Below are positions 26,872-40,526 of a DNA stretch of 40,526 bases, in pieces. Every line of letters begins with the position of its first letter. The first letter of the stretch is position 1. The DNA comes from Clostridia bacterium (GTDB lineage Bacteria; Bacillota; Clostridia; Christensenellales; Aristaeellaceae): assembly GCA_017552535.1 (NCBI GenBank), contig JAFZPV010000017.1, positions 1 through 40,526 of the forward strand. Direction: 5' to 3'. The position numbers were made by a program, and so were the translations under genes. A model generated the notes under the pieces. It saw only the letters and a list, made by a program, of their open reading frames with translations, made no database searches and was not told the origin of the DNA.

Positions 26872-28020
26872 ATGCGCACGATCGTCATTTGGGGCGCGGG
26901 CCGCATCGGGCGCGGCTTCGTGGCGGACATCTTCCGGCAGGCGGAAGGCTTTCGGACGGTATTCGTGGATATCGATCTGCCTTTGGTGAACGCACTGAAC
27001 GCGGCAGACGGCTATACCGTAGCCAAAGCCACCCGGGACGGGATCGAAGAGACCTTCGTGAAAAAAGGCTATGAGGCGGTGCACACATCCGATACAGGCC
27101 GCCTGACGGCGCTGTTTTCGGAAAAGGATCTCCTGCTGGATATCGCCGTGCACGAGCCGAAGCTCGAAGAAGTGACCGATATGCTCGTGCCCCTGATCGG
27201 ACACCGGTCGCGCATGGGCCTTGCCATGGACGTGATGATGAACGTGAACATGGCGCGCCCGGACGAGCGCTTCCGCGCCCTGATGCGCGAAAGGCTGGGC
27301 CCGGAAGAAAAGGCTTATTTTGACCGGAACGTAGGCGTCACGGGGATCTTCGCCATGTGCATCTCCCCCCTCGCGCCCGCGTGGCTCAAAGAGAAAGACC
27401 CTCTGGCGCTGTGGAACAACGGCTGGCCCACCCAGACCGTGAGCCAAAGCGCCCTGAAATGCCCGCCGCCCAAAGCGCCCCGGCTCCTGCTCACAGACGA
27501 CATCGAGCGCGAAGAGACCCGCAAGCTCTACACCCTCAACATGGCCCACGCCTTTCTGTGCTATCTGGGCCTGCCCAAAGGGCTCACAACGTCGCTGGAA
27601 GCCGTCAGGGACGCAGAACTGCGCGCACAGCTCCTCTGTGCGCTGGATGAATCCGCCCTTGGGCTTCGGGCAGAGTTCGGCTTCGGCTCCGAAGAAATGG
27701 AAATCTGGAGCCGCACCATCGTATCGCTTCTGGAAAACCCGTACATCGAGGACGGCCTGCAAAGGCTCGGAGCGGACACCCGCCGCAAGCTCGGTCCCCG
27801 GGACCGGCTCACCGGCCCCGCACGCCTGTGCCTGAAGGCCGGGCATCCGCCAGAGCACCTCGCCCGGGCGATACGCGCGGGCTTCGAATACGACAATCCG
27901 GACGATGGTACCAGTGAGGTGCGCGCATATTACCGTGAATCCGGCCTGGCCGCTGCGGTAAAAAAATACTGCGGTCTGAAACCTGACGATCCACTGTTTG
28001 ATCTCATCATAAAAGCGTGA
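26872..28020 (+). CDS. Mannitol-1-phosphate 5-dehydrogenase-like NAD-dependent polyol dehydrogenase
   Basis: A 382-residue long-chain dehydrogenase/reductase. It starts with the NAD-binding GAGRIGRGF (8-16). The catalytic set of the mannitol dehydrogenase family is kept: K218, N223 and H226 in RKLYTLNMAHA. C-terminal blocks such as ENPYIEDGLQRLG and RKLGPRDRL match MtlD. The length equals E. coli MtlD. It should oxidise a polyol phosphate to a ketose phosphate, but no mannitol PTS is here and the N-terminal half diverges, so another sugar-phosphate substrate is possible. It is the last gene of the ROK-SIS/suf run, 15 bp after the scaffold gene. Its stop codon lies inside the terminator hairpin. 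Confidence 0.8.
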   Translation: MRTIVIWGAGRIGRGFVADIFRQAEGFRTVFVDIDLPLVNALNAADGYTVAKATRDGIEETFVKKGYEAVHTSDTGRLTALFSEKDLLLDIAVHEPKLEEVTDMLVPLIGHRSRMGLAMDVMMNVNMARPDERFRALMRERLGPEEKAYFDRNVGVTGIFAMCISPLAPAWLKEKDPLALWNNGWPTQTVSQSALKCPPPKAPRLLLTDDIEREETRKLYTLNMAHAFLCYLGLPKGLTTSLEAVRDAELRAQLLCALDESALGLRAEFGFGSEEMEIWSRTIVSLLENPYIEDGLQRLGADTRRKLGPRDRLTGPARLCLKAGHPPEHLARAIRAGFEYDNPDDGTSEVRAYYRESGLAAAVKKYCGLKPDDPLFDLIIKA

Positions 28021-28047
28021 AGCCCTTCAGCCGGGCTTCACGCTTTT
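28011..28047. terminator. Bidirectional terminator between convergent operons
   Basis: AAAAGCGTGAAGCCC and GGGCTTCACGCTTTT form a perfect 15-bp inverted repeat with a 7-nt loop. It gives a stem plus U-run on both strands. The upstream arm contains the dehydrogenase stop codon. Confidence 0.93.
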
Positions 28048-28058
28048 ATGATGCATTC

Positions 28059-28745
28059 CTATCTTGCTTTTGGGTATTCGTTGCACAGAAGGCGGTACGG
28101 CGCTTCGTCCTCTTCGATGGCGGGGAAGCGCCCAACGGGCGGGTTGAAGCGGTTGTCGGTGTTGTCGTCGTTGCACTGGCTCACTTCGCCCAGCAGCACG
28201 CTGCCGCTGCCTTTCTCCACCTCGAACTCGTGATAGAGCCTTTGGGGAATGAAGATGCTTTCGCCGGGCGTGAGCCTCACCTGCGTGCCCGCGGGCACGG
28301 TATACGAGCGGCCGTCCGTGCGGATGCATACGTCCCCTGCCCTGTCCACGCTTTCGTCCGGCAGACTGCCGAACACGCGGATCAGCACGTTTCCCCCGCC
28401 GCGGTTGATGATGTCTTCCGTCTTGTACCAGTGAAAATGATTGGGGCACCGCTGCCCTCCCTTTAAATACAAGAGTTTCTCGGCGTAGACCTTCGGATAC
28501 TTTTCGGGTGCCGTCCGCAGGCCGTTGCGTATGGTGATCAGGGAAAAGCCCACCCGGTCAAAATCTCCCGAGCCGAAATCCGTGATGTCCCAGCCCAGCA
28601 TGCAGTCACGGACCTCGTCGTACTCATGGCCCAGCGAAAGCCACTTTTGGGGCGTGAACGAGCAAAACGGCGGCAGGAAGCAGCTGTACTTTTCGCACAC
28701 GCTTTCCATCTCTTTGAGCGCTTTGTTGATCTGGGAACGTTTCAT
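28059..28745 (-). CDS. D-lyxose/D-mannose isomerase-like cupin (sugar ketol-isomerase)
   Basis: A 228-residue cupin of the D-lyxose isomerase family (E. coli EcSI, Bacillus YdaE). The metal ligands are in place: H103 and H105 (NHFHW), E110 (KTEDI) and H172 (LYHEFEVEKGSG). The active-site region VSQCNDDNTDNRF is also conserved. These enzymes interconvert D-lyxose with D-xylulose, and often D-mannose with D-fructose. AGGAGG lies 7 nt upstream of the ATG, and the start overlaps the stop of the PfkB kinase (ATGA). Isomerase followed by kinase would give a ketose phosphate for the pentose phosphate or glycolytic route. The operon ends at the shared terminator. Confidence 0.88.
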   Translation of the reverse strand: MKRSQINKALKEMESVCEKYSCFLPPFCSFTPQKWLSLGHEYDEVRDCMLGWDITDFGSGDFDRVGFSLITIRNGLRTAPEKYPKVYAEKLLYLKGGQRCPNHFHWYKTEDIINRGGGNVLIRVFGSLPDESVDRAGDVCIRTDGRSYTVPAGTQVRLTPGESIFIPQRLYHEFEVEKGSGSVLLGEVSQCNDDNTDNRFNPPVGRFPAIEEDEAPYRLLCNEYPKAR

Positions 28746-31064: not shown

Positions 31065-32138
31065 ATGAACAAGCCGTTCGCACTCGATACCGCGCTTTCT
31101 TTCGATCCGTATCCCGGAGAGCCCAGCCGCGACGGCGTGCAGGGCTGCGAAGTCACGTCCGAAGGCCGCGTGCGCTTCCGCATCATCGCGCCGGAGGCAA
31201 AGCAGGTCTGGATCAATCAGTTCTTTGACAACGACTTTTACCTGGACCGTGCGGCGGACGGAGCCTGGGAAGGCGAGTTCGACATGGGCAGGGGGTTTTT
31301 GTACTTTTTCCTCAAGATCGACGGCGCGGACGTGCTCTCGCCGTATATGCCCATCGGCTACGGCTGCTGCCGGCCGATGAACTTCGTCTTCGTTCCCGTT
31401 TCTGACATGGAGGGCTGGGACGATCTGGAGGGCATCGAACACGGCGGCGTGACGAGGCGCTACTATTTTTCCTCCGTCACCGGAAAAACGGAGATCTGCC
31501 TTATATACACGCCCCCGTTCTTTGACGCGTCCCAAAGCTTTCCCGTCTTGTACCTGCAGCACGGGTACGGCGAGAACGAGACGGGCTGGACCTACCAGGG
31601 CCATGTGAACCGCATCGCGGACCGGCTTTTGCACGAAGGGCGCATGAAGCCCATGCTGATCGTAATGGGCAACGGTATGGCGCAAAAGGACGGCAAGGCG
31701 CAGAATACACTGTATCCGGAGATCCTGGTAAAGGACCTGATCCCCTTCATCGAGGATAACTACCCCGTAAAGAAAGACAAGTGGAGCCGGGCGATGGCAG
31801 GCCTGAGCATGGGCAGCTACCAGACCAGCATCGCCACCATGTCCCACCCCGAGCTGTTCGGCTACGCTGGCATCTTCAGCGGCTTCATGCGCGCCCCCTG
31901 GAAGCCGGAGTGGGAAAAGCACATGGACATCCTGAACGACAGGGAGACCTTCAACGCCTCGTACAAAGTGTTCTACCGCGCCATGGGCACCGAGGATACG
32001 TACTTTGCCCGCTTCGCTGAGGACGACGCGCTCCTGGAAGGCCGGGGCCTTAACATCCTCAGGGAGACCTTCCCCGGCGGACACGACTGGACGGTATGGC
32101 GGCGCTGCATCTATTCGTTCCTGCCGAAATTATTTTAA
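31065..32138 (+). CDS. CE1-like esterase with N-terminal carbohydrate-binding/E-set domain
   Basis: A 357-residue protein without a signal peptide. Residues 20-110 look like the immunoglobulin-like E-set/CBM48 module of glycan-acting esterases (GRVRFRIIAPEAKQVWI). Residues 125-357 are an esterase of the feruloyl/acetyl-xylan type: VLYLQHGYGENETGW, nucleophile S248 in GLSMGS, and H340 in GGHDWTVW. Related two-domain proteins release ferulate or acetate from xylan side chains or oligosaccharides. GGAGG lies 7 nt before the ATG. It is a single-gene unit that ends directly in the structured repeat starting at 32145. Confidence 0.87.
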   Translation: MNKPFALDTALSFDPYPGEPSRDGVQGCEVTSEGRVRFRIIAPEAKQVWINQFFDNDFYLDRAADGAWEGEFDMGRGFLYFFLKIDGADVLSPYMPIGYGCCRPMNFVFVPVSDMEGWDDLEGIEHGGVTRRYYFSSVTGKTEICLIYTPPFFDASQSFPVLYLQHGYGENETGWTYQGHVNRIADRLLHEGRMKPMLIVMGNGMAQKDGKAQNTLYPEILVKDLIPFIEDNYPVKKDKWSRAMAGLSMGSYQTSIATMSHPELFGYAGIFSGFMRAPWKPEWEKHMDILNDRETFNASYKVFYRAMGTEDTYFARFAEDDALLEGRGLNILRETFPGGHDWTVWRRCIYSFLPKLF

Positions 32139-32144
32139 ATGTAT

Positions 32145-32177
32145 CGGTGGAAATGAAACAAGGTTTCATTTCCACCG
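32145..32177 (+). terminator. Terminator-like hairpin, first stem of the structured repeat (copy 1)
   Basis: CGGTGGAAATGAAAC and GTTTCATTTCCACCG form a perfect 15-bp stem with loop AAG, 6 bp after the esterase stop codon. A T-rich stretch (GTTGAGTTTTGG) follows. The equivalent stem in copy 2 differs at four base pairs, every one compensated. Confidence 0.7.
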
Positions 32178-32454
32178 GTTGAGTTTTGGATGCGTTTGAT
32201 TGTATATTTTCCGAAACGACTGCTTGTTTCCGGCTTTAACGACAGGTTTCCAGTTTTTGCTAAAACTCTGCGGAGTTTTCGGGCGCAAAAACTGCAAGGA
32301 AACGATTTTTGCTCCCGGCGGGCAAGCTCGCCTTCGCAAAAATCGCTCCTCGGGCCGGCAAAGCCGGCCCTGCGGATTGAAATTGGAGGGGTAGGCCCCT
32401 TCAAAGCACCTTGGGGGCTGTTGCTTCGTGCAGCAGCCCCTGGCTTACGCAGAG
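32145..32454 (+). repeat. Structured intergenic repeat, copy 1
   Basis: A non-coding element of about 310 bp, homologous to the inverted copy at 37641-37935. Stems in order: A, 32145-32177. B, outer 32251-32259/32286-32294 and inner 32262-32268/32273-32279 with a TGCG loop. C, 32303-32312/32336-32345. D, 32352-32359/32363-32370 with an AAA loop. E, around 32383-32404. An extra hairpin (32414-32440, GGGGCTGTTGC / GCAGCAGCCCC) is absent from copy 2. Homology resumes at CCTGGCTTACGCA. The element fills the gap between the esterase and the convergent anti-sigma-like gene. No protein-coding content is evident. Confidence 0.85.
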
Positions 32455-32463
32455 AACTCTTTG

Positions 32464-33594
32464 CTATTCAAAGCGCAGTTCGATGCTTTCGTCACCATGG
32501 TAAATGGGTTTAAAGATGTCGCCGTCCTCGTAGGTCACCAACGTTATGCCGAGTGCATCCGGTGTGACGAAAAGCTGCTTGGCGTCAAACTCATAAAGCT
32601 GCGACCAGCGACCGTCCTCCATCTGTTTTGCCTCACCTATCAGTGCGCCGCCGTTGCCGTACCAGTGCTTTTCGTTATCGACAGTGATGTCGAAACTATA
32701 GAGCGGTCCGTTGCCCTTGCCGCTGTCCATAACCGGCTCGTCGGTGATGTAGAGGATGTCGATCAGTGCAGAAGCTGGCGTAAGCAGCGCCCGCTGGATG
32801 CGGATCTCATAGCCGTCGAACACAAAATCGGTCTCGCCCGCCGGGACGCGCAGGAAACTTGTGTCGGTTTCACCTACCTCAAAGCTCAGCTTGAAGGCCT
32901 CAGCAACTTCAAAGCTGCCGCCGCCGACCAGCCGGCCTACATAGTCCTCCCCGTCCTCCCCGGCTTCGCCGAGGGGCGCGAGGGGACTTTCGATGCACCC
33001 GTCCTCCGCGATCTCATAGGGGCCGATTGCCCGCAGGATCGTGAAACTCAGCTCGCAGTCGCGGCTGCTCCCCTCGGGCAGCTCGCCGATGGCGACATTT
33101 TCGGACTGTTTTGCGTCGAGAAAGAATTCCGAGACGTTAGACATCAGCCTGTAGTCCGCACTCTTGCCGCCGAAGGTCGGCCAGTCGGACAGCACGTAAA
33201 GTCCCTCTTCGCCCGTCAGGTTCTCCATCGTCCAGTAAAGCGCGTAGCTTTCCCCGGCCTCGTCATAGATTGCCTCGTTCACGCTCACTCGGACGACGTC
33301 GCCCTCGTAGATCGCCTGCACGGGCTGGATCATCCCGGTGATCTCCTCGTTCGTCCTCCCGTCCTCGCCCGAGAACCAATTGCCCAGATGGCCTGTCACG
33401 GCGGCGAGGGCTGCCGTGCCGATCAGCAGCACACAGAGTGCGGCCACAGCGGCCAGCGTAAGTTTTTTCTTCATGTGTTTTTGTTCCTCCTGTTCAATGC
33501 TTTGCCATATGCGGCTTTGGTGCGCTGCGTCTAAGCGAATTGCGCAAAGGCGGCGATCCATGGCCGTTCTGATCTGCGTTTCTTCAAATTTCAT
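32464..33594 (-). CDS. Membrane-anchored anti-sigma-factor-like protein
   Basis: A 376-residue single-pass protein. Residues 1-42 are a charged cytoplasmic head (TQIRTAMDRRLCAIRL), residues 44-66 a membrane segment, and the rest an acidic, beta-rich extracellular part with no motif I recognise with certainty. The layout and the 11-bp overlap with an ECF sigma gene are what is expected of a cognate regulator of the DUF4179/RsiV-like kind. The head is too short and lacks the His-x3-Cys-x2-Cys zinc motif of ZAS anti-sigma factors. GGAGG lies 9 nt before the ATG. The extracellular domain would sense an envelope signal and hold the sigma factor inactive. Confidence 0.7.
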   Translation of the reverse strand: MKFEETQIRTAMDRRLCAIRLDAAHQSRIWQSIEQEEQKHMKKKLTLAAVAALCVLLIGTAALAAVTGHLGNWFSGEDGRTNEEITGMIQPVQAIYEGDVVRVSVNEAIYDEAGESYALYWTMENLTGEEGLYVLSDWPTFGGKSADYRLMSNVSEFFLDAKQSENVAIGELPEGSSRDCELSFTILRAIGPYEIAEDGCIESPLAPLGEAGEDGEDYVGRLVGGGSFEVAEAFKLSFEVGETDTSFLRVPAGETDFVFDGYEIRIQRALLTPASALIDILYITDEPVMDSGKGNGPLYSFDITVDNEKHWYGNGGALIGEAKQMEDGRWSQLYEFDAKQLFVTPDALGITLVTYEDGDIFKPIYHGDESIELRFE

Positions 33595-36733: not shown

Positions 36734-37633
36734 ATGATCGACGTATGCCTGCTGGGCACCGGGGGCATGATGCCCCTGCCCGACAGATTTCTGACTTCCC
36801 TGTACGTGCGCACGGACGGACAGGTGCTTCTGATCGACTGCGGAGAGGGCACCCAGACCGCCATCCGCACCGCAGGCCTTCGCTTTAAGCCCATCCGTGC
36901 CCTGCTGCTCACGCACTTTCACGCGGATCACGTAAGCGGTCTTCCGGGCCTGCTGCTGACGCTGGGCAACGAAGACCGCGCCGAGCCGCTGGATATCTAC
37001 GGTCCGGCGGGACTCAAGCGCGTGGTGGCCGCCGCCCGGGTGATCGTGCCAGAGCTGCCCTACGAACTCAACTGCCACGAGCTGGAAGCGGAAGAGGAAA
37101 TCACGTTCGAGGCCGCCGGCCTGACCGTCACGGCCTTTCCCGCGGACCACGGCATGCCCTGCCTCAGCTATGCCCTGGAGCGCAGCCGCCCCGGAAAGTT
37201 CGATCCCGAAAGGGCGAAGGCCCGCGGCGTGCCGCTTGGGCTGTGGAGCCGCTTGCAGAAGGGCGAAAGCGCGGAAGGCTTCAGGCCCGAAGACGTGCTG
37301 GGCCCCGACCGGCGCGGCATCCGGCTACTGTATTCCACCGACACCCTGCCTCTGGAGCGCGTGAAGGCCCTGGGCTTTGACGCTGACCTCATGGTGCTGG
37401 AGGGCATGTTCGGCGATCCTGCGAAAGCCGAGCGGGCCCAGTTCACCCATCACTCCACCATGCAGCAGTCGGCTCTGCTTGCCCGGGACGCCCATGCCAG
37501 GCGGCTGTGGCTCACCCATTATTCCCCCGCCAATCCCCATCCCGAAGAATACGAAGAGGAGATCAAAGCCCTCTTTCCGAACGCCGTGATCTGCCGGGAC
37601 GGGCAGAAACTGACGCTGGAATTCGAAGATTAA
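36734..37633 (+). CDS. rnz: Ribonuclease Z
   Basis: Endonuclease that trims the 3' end of tRNA precursors lacking an encoded CCA. The 299 residues fit the short RNase Z form. The metal-binding motif is H61-F-H63-A-D65-H66, preceded by the characteristic IDCGEGTQ (34-41). Further ligands are in PADHGMPCLSY, LYSTDT and the final LTHYSP. The exosite loop region around PLGLWSRLQKGE is also typical. An AAAGGAAA site lies before the ATG. It follows the Big2 gene by 18 bp and ends at the right flank of repeat copy 2. Confidence 0.93.
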   Translation: MIDVCLLGTGGMMPLPDRFLTSLYVRTDGQVLLIDCGEGTQTAIRTAGLRFKPIRALLLTHFHADHVSGLPGLLLTLGNEDRAEPLDIYGPAGLKRVVAAARVIVPELPYELNCHELEAEEEITFEAAGLTVTAFPADHGMPCLSYALERSRPGKFDPERAKARGVPLGLWSRLQKGESAEGFRPEDVLGPDRRGIRLLYSTDTLPLERVKALGFDADLMVLEGMFGDPAKAERAQFTHHSTMQQSALLARDAHARRLWLTHYSPANPHPEEYEEEIKALFPNAVICRDGQKLTLEFED

Positions 37634-37640
37634 CAGGGCT

Positions 37641-37935
37641 ATTGCATAAGTCAGGAGAATCCACCAGGTGGTTTGGAGGGGTTTACCCTTCCAATTTCAA
37701 TCCGCAGGGCCAGCTTTGCCGGCCCGAGGAGCGATTTTTGCGAAGGTGAGCTTGCCCGCCGAAAGCAAAAATCGCTACATTGCAGTTTTTTCGCCCGGAG
37801 ATTTCCGCAGAAATCTCAGAAAAAACTGTGAACCTGTTGCTGAAGCCGGAAATGATCAGACGTTTCGCATACAGATCAGGCAAAAGGTTTCAAAAACCAA
37901 ACCGCCGGGAATGAAATCCCATTTCATTCCCGGCG
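37641..37935 (-). repeat. Structured intergenic repeat, copy 2 (inverted relative to copy 1)
   Basis: The same element as 32145-32454, read on the minus strand. Stems: A, 37903-37917/37921-37935 (15 bp perfect, loop of 3). B, outer 37783-37791/37820-37828 and inner 37798-37805/37810-37817. C, 37730-37741/37765-37776. D, 37707-37714/37718-37725. E, around 37673-37694. Inner stem B is GAGATTTC/GAAATCTC here and AAAACTC/GAGTTTT in copy 1, with the same TGCG loop and the same CT/CGGGCG internal loop. It lies behind the GH43 gene (26 bp) and converges on rnz. No coding content is apparent. Confidence 0.85.
37903..37935 (-). terminator. Terminator-like hairpin after the GH43 gene (stem A of copy 2)
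   Basis: CGCCGGGAATGAAAT and ATTTCATTCCCGGCG form a perfect 15-bp stem with a 3-nt loop. On the minus strand it is followed by GTTTGGTTTTTG, a better T-tract than in copy 1. Confidence 0.75.
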
Positions 37936-37961
37936 ATGGGCTGCCCTGCAACCCCGTCCCG

Positions 37962-38843
37962 TCATCGTATCACGTTTCCCGTCAGGCGCAGACCGCTTCC
38001 TGCCTCCTCCAGCTCCATGAACGCCGCGCGCTCGTCGGGCGTGCGGTTTGGCATGTGGATGGCCAGGTATCTGCGGCCGTCAAAGCTTTCAAAGATCATG
38101 CCGTGGCCGCCGTCTTTGTCGAACAGCGGCTCTTTGTCCACCGTCCATTCGCCGGAAAGCCTGCCGTTGTCAGAGCGCGCGCAGCCGATGGCGTAGCCGC
38201 CGGGAGACAGCGTGCTCCACAGCATCAAAAGCGTTCCGTCCGAGGTGCGGTACATGTTGGGCCCGTCCGTCACATAGCCTCGGGTGCCGCTGGAGTGATT
38301 CACCGCGCGGCTCCATTTCGCCTGTGAGGCTTTGAACATCAGCTTCGGTTCCCCCGCCGGCGCGCTCAGGTCGTCCGTGAGCGGCATATACAGGATCTCC
38401 CCGTCGCCGATCTGCACCCATTCGTGGCAGAACACGAGATACGGCTTTGAATCCTCCACGTACAAAGTGCCGTCCAGGCATTCCCAGTCCGGGGGCGTGA
38501 GCGCCCTTTCGCTCCAGGGCCGGAAGGGGCCTTCCGGCGAATCCGCCTTGAGCACGGCGGTGCCGCGGCAGACGCCGGGCGCCTTGAAGGACGCAAAGAG
38601 ATAGTATTTGCCCCGGTACGCGTGCATCTCCGGCGCCCAGAAGTTCACCTGGCCCCAGTAGCCCTGCGGCCTGTCGAATACGTTGCCCAGGCACATCCAG
38701 TGCTCAAGGTCCTCGCTTGCGTAGGCGTCAAAGCCCCGGCCTTCGCTTTTCCAAATGTCGTGATCCGTGGACCCGTACAGGTAGTACCTGCCGTTTTCGG
38801 CGTATACGAAGGGGTCCCGGATCTGGATGTCTTTGAGCAGCAT
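37962..38843 (-). CDS. Glycoside hydrolase family 43-like protein
   Basis: A 293-residue five-bladed beta-propeller, probably intracellular since the chosen start has no signal peptide. The catalytic base region is IRDPFVYAENGRYYLYGS (D10) and the second Asp is D124 in ECLDGTLY. The position normally held by the general-acid Glu (EGP) reads TDGPNMY, with D193. Some GH43 branches show this Asp, so activity is uncertain. FWAPEMHAYRGKYYLFAS is also typical. The ATG at 38843 has GGGAGGT 6 nt upstream; the frame extends to 38999 but crosses the promoter. Typical substrates are arabinose- or xylose-containing oligosaccharides. Confidence 0.85.
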   Translation of the reverse strand: MLLKDIQIRDPFVYAENGRYYLYGSTDHDIWKSEGRGFDAYASEDLEHWMCLGNVFDRPQGYWGQVNFWAPEMHAYRGKYYLFASFKAPGVCRGTAVLKADSPEGPFRPWSERALTPPDWECLDGTLYVEDSKPYLVFCHEWVQIGDGEILYMPLTDDLSAPAGEPKLMFKASQAKWSRAVNHSSGTRGYVTDGPNMYRTSDGTLLMLWSTLSPGGYAIGCARSDNGRLSGEWTVDKEPLFDKDGGHGMIFESFDGRRYLAIHMPNRTPDERAAFMELEEAGSGLRLTGNVIR

Positions 38844-39614: not shown

Positions 39615-39629
39615 ATTCCCGATAACATG

Positions 39630-39774
39630 CCTTATCAAGAGTGGTTGAGGGACGGGCCCTGTGAAACCCGGCAACCGGTCTGATCCGGTGCCAATTCCCG
39701 CAAGGCGAAAGCCTTGAAAGATGAGGCGAGCGCTCCGCGCGTATGTGTGAGACTCGCCCCCTGATGAGGGCGGG
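39630..39774 (+). ncRNA. SAM-I (S-box) riboswitch with terminator expression platform
   Basis: The aptamer shows the S-box consensus blocks in order: TTATCAAGAG, GGTTGAGGGAC, CTGTGAAACCCGGCAACC, GGTGCCAATTCC and GAAAGATGAGG. P1 pairs 39630-39636 with 39720-39726. Downstream, CTCGCCC (39753-39759) pairs with GGGCGGG (39768-39774) followed by TTATTAGTTT, the terminator. GGCGAG (39725-39730) can instead pair with CTCGCC (39753-39758) as antiterminator and overlaps P1 by two bases. SAM binding should therefore terminate transcription before metK, which makes SAM. Confidence 0.95.
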
Positions 39775-39807: not shown

Positions 39808-40526
39808 ATGCGAAAGCTCTTTACCTCCGAGTCCGTCACCGAAGGACATCCCGATAAGATCTGCGACCAGATCAGCGATTCCATCCTGGACGCCATCCTG
39901 GCGCAGGACCCCAACGCCCATGTGGCCTGCGAGTGCGTGGCCACCACGGGCCTTATCATGATCATGGGCGAGATCAGCGCCGCCTGCCATGTGGACTACG
40001 CGCAGATCGCCCGCGCCAAAGTGTTGGAAATCGGTTACGACCGTGCCAAATACGGCTTCGACGGCGAAAGCTGCTCCGTGCTGGTGTGCGTGGACCAGCA
40101 GTCCCCCGACATCGCCATGGGCGTGAACAACGCGCTGGAAGGCCGCGGCGAGAACGCCATGGAGACCGGTGCGGGCGACCAGGGCATGATGTTCGGCTAC
40201 GCCTGCAGCGAGACCGAAGAGCTCATGCCCATGCCCATCGCCCTGGCCCACCGCATCACCCGCCGCATGGCGTACGTGCGCAAAAACAAGCTGGTGGGCT
40301 ATATGCGGCCTGACGGCAAGGCCCAGGTCACCGTGGAATACGAGGACGGAAAGCCCCTACGCGTGGACACGGTGGTGCTCTCCACCCAGCACGACCCGAA
40401 CGCCACCCACGAGCAGATCGAAAAGGACATGATCGACCTGGTGATCCGTCACGAGATCCCCGCCGAACTCATCGACGAAAACACCCGCTTCTTCATCAAC
40501 CCCACCGGGCGCTTTGTCGTGGGCGG
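39808..40526 (+). CDS. metK: S-adenosylmethionine synthetase (3' truncated by window)
   Basis: Makes SAM from methionine and ATP. The first 239 residues are visible. The N-terminal signature is complete: [18 protein letters not shown] with the catalytic H14 and the ATP-contacting D16 and K17. The [12 protein letters not shown] motif lies around residues 118-130, and the last visible block [13 protein letters not shown] is the conserved C-terminal domain entry. AGGAGA ends 7 nt before the ATG at 39808. A nearer upstream ATG at 39801 is out of frame. The gene sits directly under the SAM-I riboswitch, a feedback loop on its own product. Confidence 0.96.

Follow-up and report, generated by a model that had tools for sequence, protein, structure and literature searches.

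A probably mobile, modular hairpin repeat in intergenic regions of Christensenella-like Clostridia

Described interspersed repeats and the element in the window

The BOX elements of Streptococcus pneumoniae are small, modular, interspersed and highly folded repeats with an optional inner module, which occur in many copies and are regarded as putative MITEs in the sections of PMC3049150 that deal with them. The same sections describe SPRITE of pneumococcus, a terminator-like interspersed repeat composed of an 18-bp duplex and a uridine-rich tail. In the Bacillus cereus group, the repeats bcr1-bcr18 are group-restricted and intergenic, some of them are MITE-like, and they are often found in UTRs (PMC3446304, passages on these repeats). 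REP and BIME elements are palindromic, lie mostly downstream of genes, between unidirectional or convergent genes, and are made of 20-40 bp units, most of which are tagged GTAG or CGTC; the CGTC REPs are without a known transposase as far as the respective part of PMC3733652 goes. Finally, the long-TSD subgroup of the IS1202 family generates target duplications of 16-28 bp, the family ends of the ISAjo2 type are 5'-TGT...ACA-3', and no common target was found for this subgroup according to the relevant portion of PMC10132070.

Here we describe an element which resembles each of these systems in part. It was found in a window of 40,526 nt (the whole stretch of DNA that was analysed), which corresponds to contig C27 of a 2.39-Mb clostridial genome that is 77% complete. 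Compared by description, the element shares with BOX all the features listed above, but it belongs to another host and consists of a core of four hairpins (B-C-D-E), to which duplicated host hairpins are added in distant relatives. From bcr1-bcr18, which are also group-restricted and in part MITE-like, it differs, again compared by description, in its host. It occupies sites like those of REPs; however, with a length of about 200-420 bp, long and short forms, and several hairpins in the order A, B, C, D, E between hairpin-forming ends, it differs from the REP units, and unlike SPRITE it is a chain of hairpins. The IS1202-type elements are the nearest precedent for long flank repeats (PMC10132070, same portion): the length of the repeats fits those found in distant MAGs, while the ends fit only as a TGT...ACA core, and unlike our element these are autonomous ISs with a transposase of 441-457 aa in Acinetobacter; none with the ends of the element was found here. 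In the open-access literature searched, only analogues of the repeat were met with, and the family is apparently unnamed.

A sequence-only reading of the window had proposed that about 300 bp at 32145-32454 are homologous to the reverse complement of 37641-37935. Reading and aligning the two copies bore this out, including the differences listed between them, and the pair was also detected as an inverted repeat, 89% complementary over 137 nt. Both copies are present, but their edges had to be corrected: copy 1 extends from about 32143 to 32440 on the plus strand, and copy 2, on the minus strand, from 37641 to about 37956. Copy 1 is located between an esterase-like gene of the plus strand ending at 32138 and a minus-strand gene with a sub-threshold DUF4179 match ending at 32464. 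Copy 2 lies between a GH43 gene (minus strand, ending at 37962) and a metallo-hydrolase-like gene (plus strand, ending at 37633). Both copies are thus flanked by convergent called genes, and no called gene lies over either of them. The window also harbours a SAM riboswitch (RF00162, 88.8 bits) at 39629-39727 on the plus strand; it precedes a gene for S-adenosylmethionine synthetase at 39808.

The hairpin of stem A is found at 32143-32179 (plus strand) in copy 1 and at 37901-37937 (minus strand) in copy 2, each with 17 pairs according to the terminator scan (G-T allowed). The four positions at which the copies differ are all compensated, as previously noticed. Stem B of copy 1 (32251-32294, plus strand) is composed of an outer stem, an asymmetric loop with 5' U and 3' CGGGC, an inner stem and a TGCG loop. 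The alignment shows that its inner part changes from AAAACTC/GAGTTTT to GAGATTTC/GAAATCTC between the copies, that the TGCG loop and the CT/CGGGCG internal loop are identical in both, and that the remaining stems and compensated differences listed for the pair are also present. On the plus strand, copy 1 further contains the stem C hairpin (32303-32345), stem D (32347-32376) with a flanking TCC...GGA extension (TCCTCG ... CTGCGGA), the stem E hairpin (32385-32401) and the right-end hairpin GGGGCTGTTGC-TTCG-TGCAGCAGCCCC (32414-32440). In 18 other copies of the same genome, a hairpin similar to GGGGCTGTTGCACAGCCCC (4 edits or fewer) is located at the left end instead. In copy 2, the B-C-D-E core is located at 37669-37829 on the minus strand, where it matches the covariance model R1 (see below) with 185.5 bits. 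The fold of each copy is better than those of 100 out of 100 dinucleotide shuffles, with z-scores of -8.57 (copy 1) and -6.28 (copy 2). The earlier statement that the sequence resembles no known structured RNA agrees with the Rfam search, in which every family remained below its gathering score on the element. Even a permissive scan of 11 loci gave on the element a single miRNA match, MIR2275, over stem A of copy 1, at chance level (E 3.6; 24.6 bits, where 60.5 would be required).

Copy number, distribution and genomic sites

R1 is a model of the B-C-D-E core built from 36 copies of the host genome (G000) and its genus. In the host genome, blastn gave 46 matches and R1 gave 75 at E <= 0.001, and therefore the pair in the window is not a chance similarity. 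At 50 bits or more there are 61 R1 places, some of them cut by contig ends; the matches below 50 bits include those to stem B only and reverse-strand matches on copies. As in MITEs, the element is short (about 300 bp), non-coding and dispersed, with one of 45 scored copies of the host genome inside a called gene.

Among 60 genomes, R1 matches were detected in 24 (host included). The host family is represented by 36 genomes, of which 22 matched; of the 24 genomes from other families two matched, weakly (E about 1e-6 to 1e-5). Because the filters were stricter in this search and 49 candidates were scored per genome, the counts for copy-rich genomes, at least 45 in G002 and at least 49 in G006, are lower bounds. 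Within the sample searched, the element scarcely occurs outside one family of Christensenella-like Clostridia. When named genomes were scanned with a pattern, the matches listed included Ca. Faecaligallichristensenella, 'Christensenella sp. UBA4379' and further MAGs of Clostridia, several of them with rumen in the title. These named MAGs are more distant relatives and may not belong to the family of the window. The plasmid and phage collections searched for the element yielded none. One IMG/VR contig carries a copy (L152, 1001-1126, minus strand, 66.5 bits).

The copies form genome-specific subfamilies with up to tens of members per genome. For 89 of 94 distinct copies the nearest neighbour is in the same genome, compared with a mean of 33.2 and a maximum of 46 after shuffling. 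Orthologous sites were compared by scanning 60 stretches behind orthologs of 15 upstream genes of the host genome in six congeners, in which one truncated copy (L360) was found. Together with full copies at two further orthologous sites (L051 in G003 and L032 in G005), 3 of 62 sites are filled, some of the 60 stretches being short (L339, L348) or behind weak orthologs (L309, 58%; L325, 49%). The gene at L013, which has paralogs, and the pgk site of G006, at a contig end, were left out of this comparison, and two matches were not counted as copies: a weak one behind the gene at L313 (16.5 bits), which may be a remnant, and L364 (12.9 bits). In our opinion the whole is best explained if the copies, two of them in the window, belong to a non-autonomous, modular mobile repeat, and we consider this explanation likely.

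Modules are visible within the family. Among the copies displayed, seven of the host genome and two of G005 have three additional hairpins inserted in the 3' arm of stem B. The long form with a very similar extra module of three hairpins in stem B (L220, L221, L214, L218, L222, L225, L226, L251 and L252) is common to the species of the window and G005. In G001, a solo E-type hairpin (L363) is located between pgk and tpiA, genes which we name from the look of their proteins. The stem B insert and the solo E hairpin resemble the modularity of BOX as outlined in PMC3049150. In G005, the ortholog of the gene upstream of copy L212 is immediately followed by a tandem repeat with GGCGGCAATCTGCCGCC hairpins (L361).

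One observation speaks against mobility. Among the copies whose neighbours were compared, six of the host genome have a neighbour gene in common with a copy elsewhere: L016 and L218 with G002, L212 with G003, L213 with G005, L066 and L094, L216 with L150 (downstream gene), and L217 with L099. L212 and L213 are already contained in the 3 of 62 filled sites, and the other four lie outside that test. The pgk-tpiA site holds a copy in four genomes (L213 of the host, L032 of G005, L066 and L094), is shared at no more than 55-59% Pgk identity, and fits kept function as well as repeated insertion. The host copy L213 belongs to a different subfamily at this site, and together with the shared neighbours this indicates that some sites are old or were hit repeatedly.

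In the host genome, 43 R1-confirmed copies have a called neighbour on both sides, and 22 of them lie between convergent genes, 11 in ++ and 7 in -- arrangement and 3 between divergent genes; 14 copies near contig ends, one inside a called gene and one without a neighbour were left out. A looser motif scan (up to 4 edits) gave 265 matches, 94 of which lie within called genes and were set aside, and led to very similar context counts (23/11/7/3). The element is thus mostly located beside the 3' ends of genes, and the flanking mRNAs may carry it as a putative structured 3' UTR.

This location bears on two other explanations. The element could be a bidirectional terminator or a chromosome-architecture repeat of the REP/BIME kind, kept between convergent genes for the benefit of the cell. 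The 22 of 43 copies between convergent genes, the A-rich and T-rich flanks, and the fact that REPs occupy the same niche (PMC3733652) are in its favour. However, several of the orthologous sites that are free of the element hold, as judged by eye, an ordinary hairpin with a T-tract, and the terminator scan of the window region revealed 10 sites compared to 7.8 in shuffles; we regard this explanation as quite improbable. Secondly, the element could be a regulatory RNA which lies in 3' UTRs or intercistronic regions, is kept by selection for its folded structure (for example as an mRNA stabiliser or a processing site) and has secondarily multiplied. The upstream gene has the same orientation in 33 of 43 host copies, and the pgk-tpiA site is occupied in four genomes, as would suit such an RNA, but in 10 of 43 copies the upstream gene is on the other strand, and 59 of 62 tested orthologous sites are without a copy.

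Complementarity of the hairpin arms

The case for a regulatory RNA is based above all on covariation. Further copies were found to covary in two alignments, both of which are fitted to the model, with the kinship of the copies partly controlled. In alignment A3, which contains 108 R1 matches in 82 loci (80 from named genomes and two own), all 44 tested pairs changed on both sides, and 0 of 500 shuffles scored as high; 96.3% of the cells are paired (71.1% in shuffles), and the covariation score is 0.361 (0.096 for shuffles, no higher than 0.072 for slid versions). For 103 matches from the host genome, its three congeners G002, G005 and G006, and G012, the corresponding values are 96.1% paired cells, 37 of 44 two-sided pairs and a score of 0.332. 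Conserved unpaired parts are the loop of stem B with 5' U and 3' CGGGC (or GGCC), the linker TCCTCG before stem D and CTGCGGA after it. The TCC...GGA pairing around D (helix 6) is backed by few two-sided changes. Of the 94 copies in alignment A4, 71 have an intact asymmetric loop in stem B, and 12 of the 20 unclassified copies are long forms cut by the model; the loop recurs in other MAGs.

The sequence-only reading had taken stem covariation with conserved loops as the mark of a selected fold. This meaning is not supported in that form, since the family looks mobile, arm copying is seen in a few copies, and G-U pairs show no clear excess; selection on an RNA fold is only partly supported as the meaning of the covariation, and the element may still have a role as RNA. 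In a repeat family that looks mobile, entire hairpins can be moved as modules.

With five near-invariant pairs excluded, one-sided deviations gave G-U:A-C ratios of 28:40 in A3 and 32:28 in A2, compared to 63:5 in a tRNA control (acceptor and T stems of 77 distinct tRNAs from the loci analysed). Thus G-U is not clearly favoured over A-C in the element, which would speak against a fold selected at the level of RNA. However, common G-U alleles exist at two pairs, in 44 and 21 sequences of A4, and because of them the outcome of this test is mixed. In addition, UNCG loops were found on the sense strand only (42 of 159 for E and 54 of 129 for B, 0 in both for the reverse complement), and therefore an RNA role or common descent is favoured. 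Weighing these points against the orthologous sites and the G-U ratios, we think it unlikely that the element is at heart a regulatory RNA, despite 44 of 44 covarying pairs.

At the level of DNA, template switching yields multi-base compensated changes without RNA selection (PMC8794818), and part of the compensation may be explained by such switching between the arms. What looks like arm copying made stem B perfectly palindromic in three of 94 A4 copies (CGCCCG/CGGGCG in L006, CT/AG in L011 and L019) and also in one G004 copy (L035). These cases, and the fact that template switching accounts for multi-base compensated changes, would suit a DNA repeat that decays neutrally, in which template switching alone keeps the palindromes complementary and the fold is unselected. 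On the other hand, the asymmetric loop of stem B is kept in most A4 copies and in other MAGs, and close copy pairs (at most 6% apart; the pairs are not independent) differ by 28 one-sided and 3 two-sided changes, which means that arm copying is not overwhelming. A purely neutral repeat therefore seems an unlikely explanation to us. In the mobile repeat that we prefer, the complementarity of the hairpins would be kept partly by template switching between arms, and the asymmetric loops would persist because folded DNA or RNA is presumably needed for amplification.

The very strong covariation in a mobile-looking DNA repeat calls for caution when RNAs are to be discovered in repeats by covariation. 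At the same time, the family is a natural data set for parting RNA selection from template switching by G-U versus A-C deviations and arm copying.

Ends, flanking repeats and possible mode of insertion

The inverted-end motif GGGGCTGTTGCA is present at 20 places in the host genome (0 for the reversed control), 17 of which are ends of known copies. The other three all lie within 54-139 nt of contig ends, and an autonomous parent with GGGGCTGTTGCA ends was therefore set aside for this assembly (77% complete). As in MITEs, terminal inverted repeats, GGGGCTGTTGCA...TGCAACAGCYCC, are found in part of the host copies, and imperfect ones, CAGNNTGTCRAAAA...TTTTYGACANNCTG, were recognised by eye in distant MAGs. 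The ends in the host genome are a GGGGCTG hairpin (left) and CAGCYCC (right), with an A-rich left and a T-rich right flank: A is present at the last four positions of the left flank in 56-83% of 18 host copies, and T at positions 2-3 of the right flank in 72 and 62% of 29 host copies.

In the named MAGs, flank repeats of at least 20 nt surround 13 of 76 motif hits compared to 4 of 1497 mismatched flank pairs. Motif hits were counted here if they had no more than 3 edits. R1 confirmed 42 of 42 hits in the host genome, 70 of 76 in named MAGs and 22 of 59 in other G genomes, having been run on part of the latter. All 13 copies are among the 70 confirmed ones; the repeat at L061 is the element's own hairpin, which leaves 12 of 70 copies between direct repeats that are specific to the respective host and 20-37 bp long. 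Eleven of these repeats fold as hairpins and one does so weakly (L116). Among sixteen flank pairs displayed, some of them shorter, thirteen are complete hairpins (L129 and L121 by eye, with small loop differences), L116 is a weak hairpin, L097 has none, and L126 is a hairpin with an 11-nt exact repeat. In most displayed pairs the order is A-rich - hairpin - CAG...element...CTG - hairpin - T-rich, directly outside the ends. No flank repeat of at least 12 nt was found at the 42 host copies or at the 59 motif hits of other G genomes (22 R1-confirmed), and short target-site duplications in the host genome were not significant (6 of 13, 2.7 expected). Insertion into the loop of a terminator was considered and rejected, the flanks of the same copy being no more complementary than shuffled flanks.

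The flank hairpins in distant MAGs appear to be intrinsic terminators that were duplicated by insertion, with the terminator label resting on the hairpin and the T-rich flank. We infer that terminators are targeted in both lineages and that in the genus of the window the hairpin is now carried by the element. It is tempting to speculate, although we would not put it at even chances, that the machinery reads hairpins on both sides, with the folded array as substrate, the terminator as target, and a cut at both feet of the hairpin. In such a mechanism the direct repeats would be target-site duplications of an intrinsic terminator. A transposase acting in trans, perhaps an IS481/IS1202-like DDE enzyme (TGT...ACA ends, long target duplications), would cut the two strands, each at one foot of the terminator hairpin, and the hairpin would then be doubled by gap filling. 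With the terminator doubled, a gene reading in from either side would meet a terminator, and the insertion would therefore be nearly neutral. In the genus of the window, the element itself seems to bring terminator-like ends (A-rich - GGGGCTG hairpin ... CAGCYCC - T-rich).

Searches of copy-rich genomes for Y1, PF00078, PF01609, Cas1 and PF00665 revealed no mobilising enzyme. Mobilisation by RAYT, as for REPs, or by IS200 was rejected: the sole Y1 gene of the host genome lies in an IS200-like element that interrupts a copy and is not a partner of the repeat, and the copy-rich genomes G002 and G006 have no Y1 transposase. The IS200-like element (164-aa frame; L271, contig C6, near 27471-28224) is inserted in the spacer of a copy downstream of a gene which we take to be clpX-like from the look of its protein. 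Reverse transcription was discarded, as PF00078 was not detected in G000 (77% complete), G012 and G023. A PF01609 DDE transposase was likewise set aside, with none in G000 (77% complete) and a weak match in G012, and so was Cas1, with none in G000 (77% complete), G005, G006 and G012 and one in G002. For PF00665 (rve), one IS481-like IS was found in G000 and none in G002. This IS (L376, 967-2075; 324 aa with 202.9 bits, where the NCBIfam cut-off is 224) has the ends TGTAGG...CCTACA and is surrounded by a perfect 26-nt direct repeat; it shows a long target duplication in the host genome. Its ends differ from those of the element beyond TGT, and it is the only rve IS found in this genome (77% complete).

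If the duplication of terminators is confirmed, it would hint at a rule by which long-TSD transposition may choose its target; for the IS1202 group, no target had been found in the portion of PMC10132070 cited above. It would represent a terminator-duplicating, self-insulating transposon strategy, in which each flanking gene keeps one terminator, and would explain how dozens of copies could settle harmlessly beside genes.
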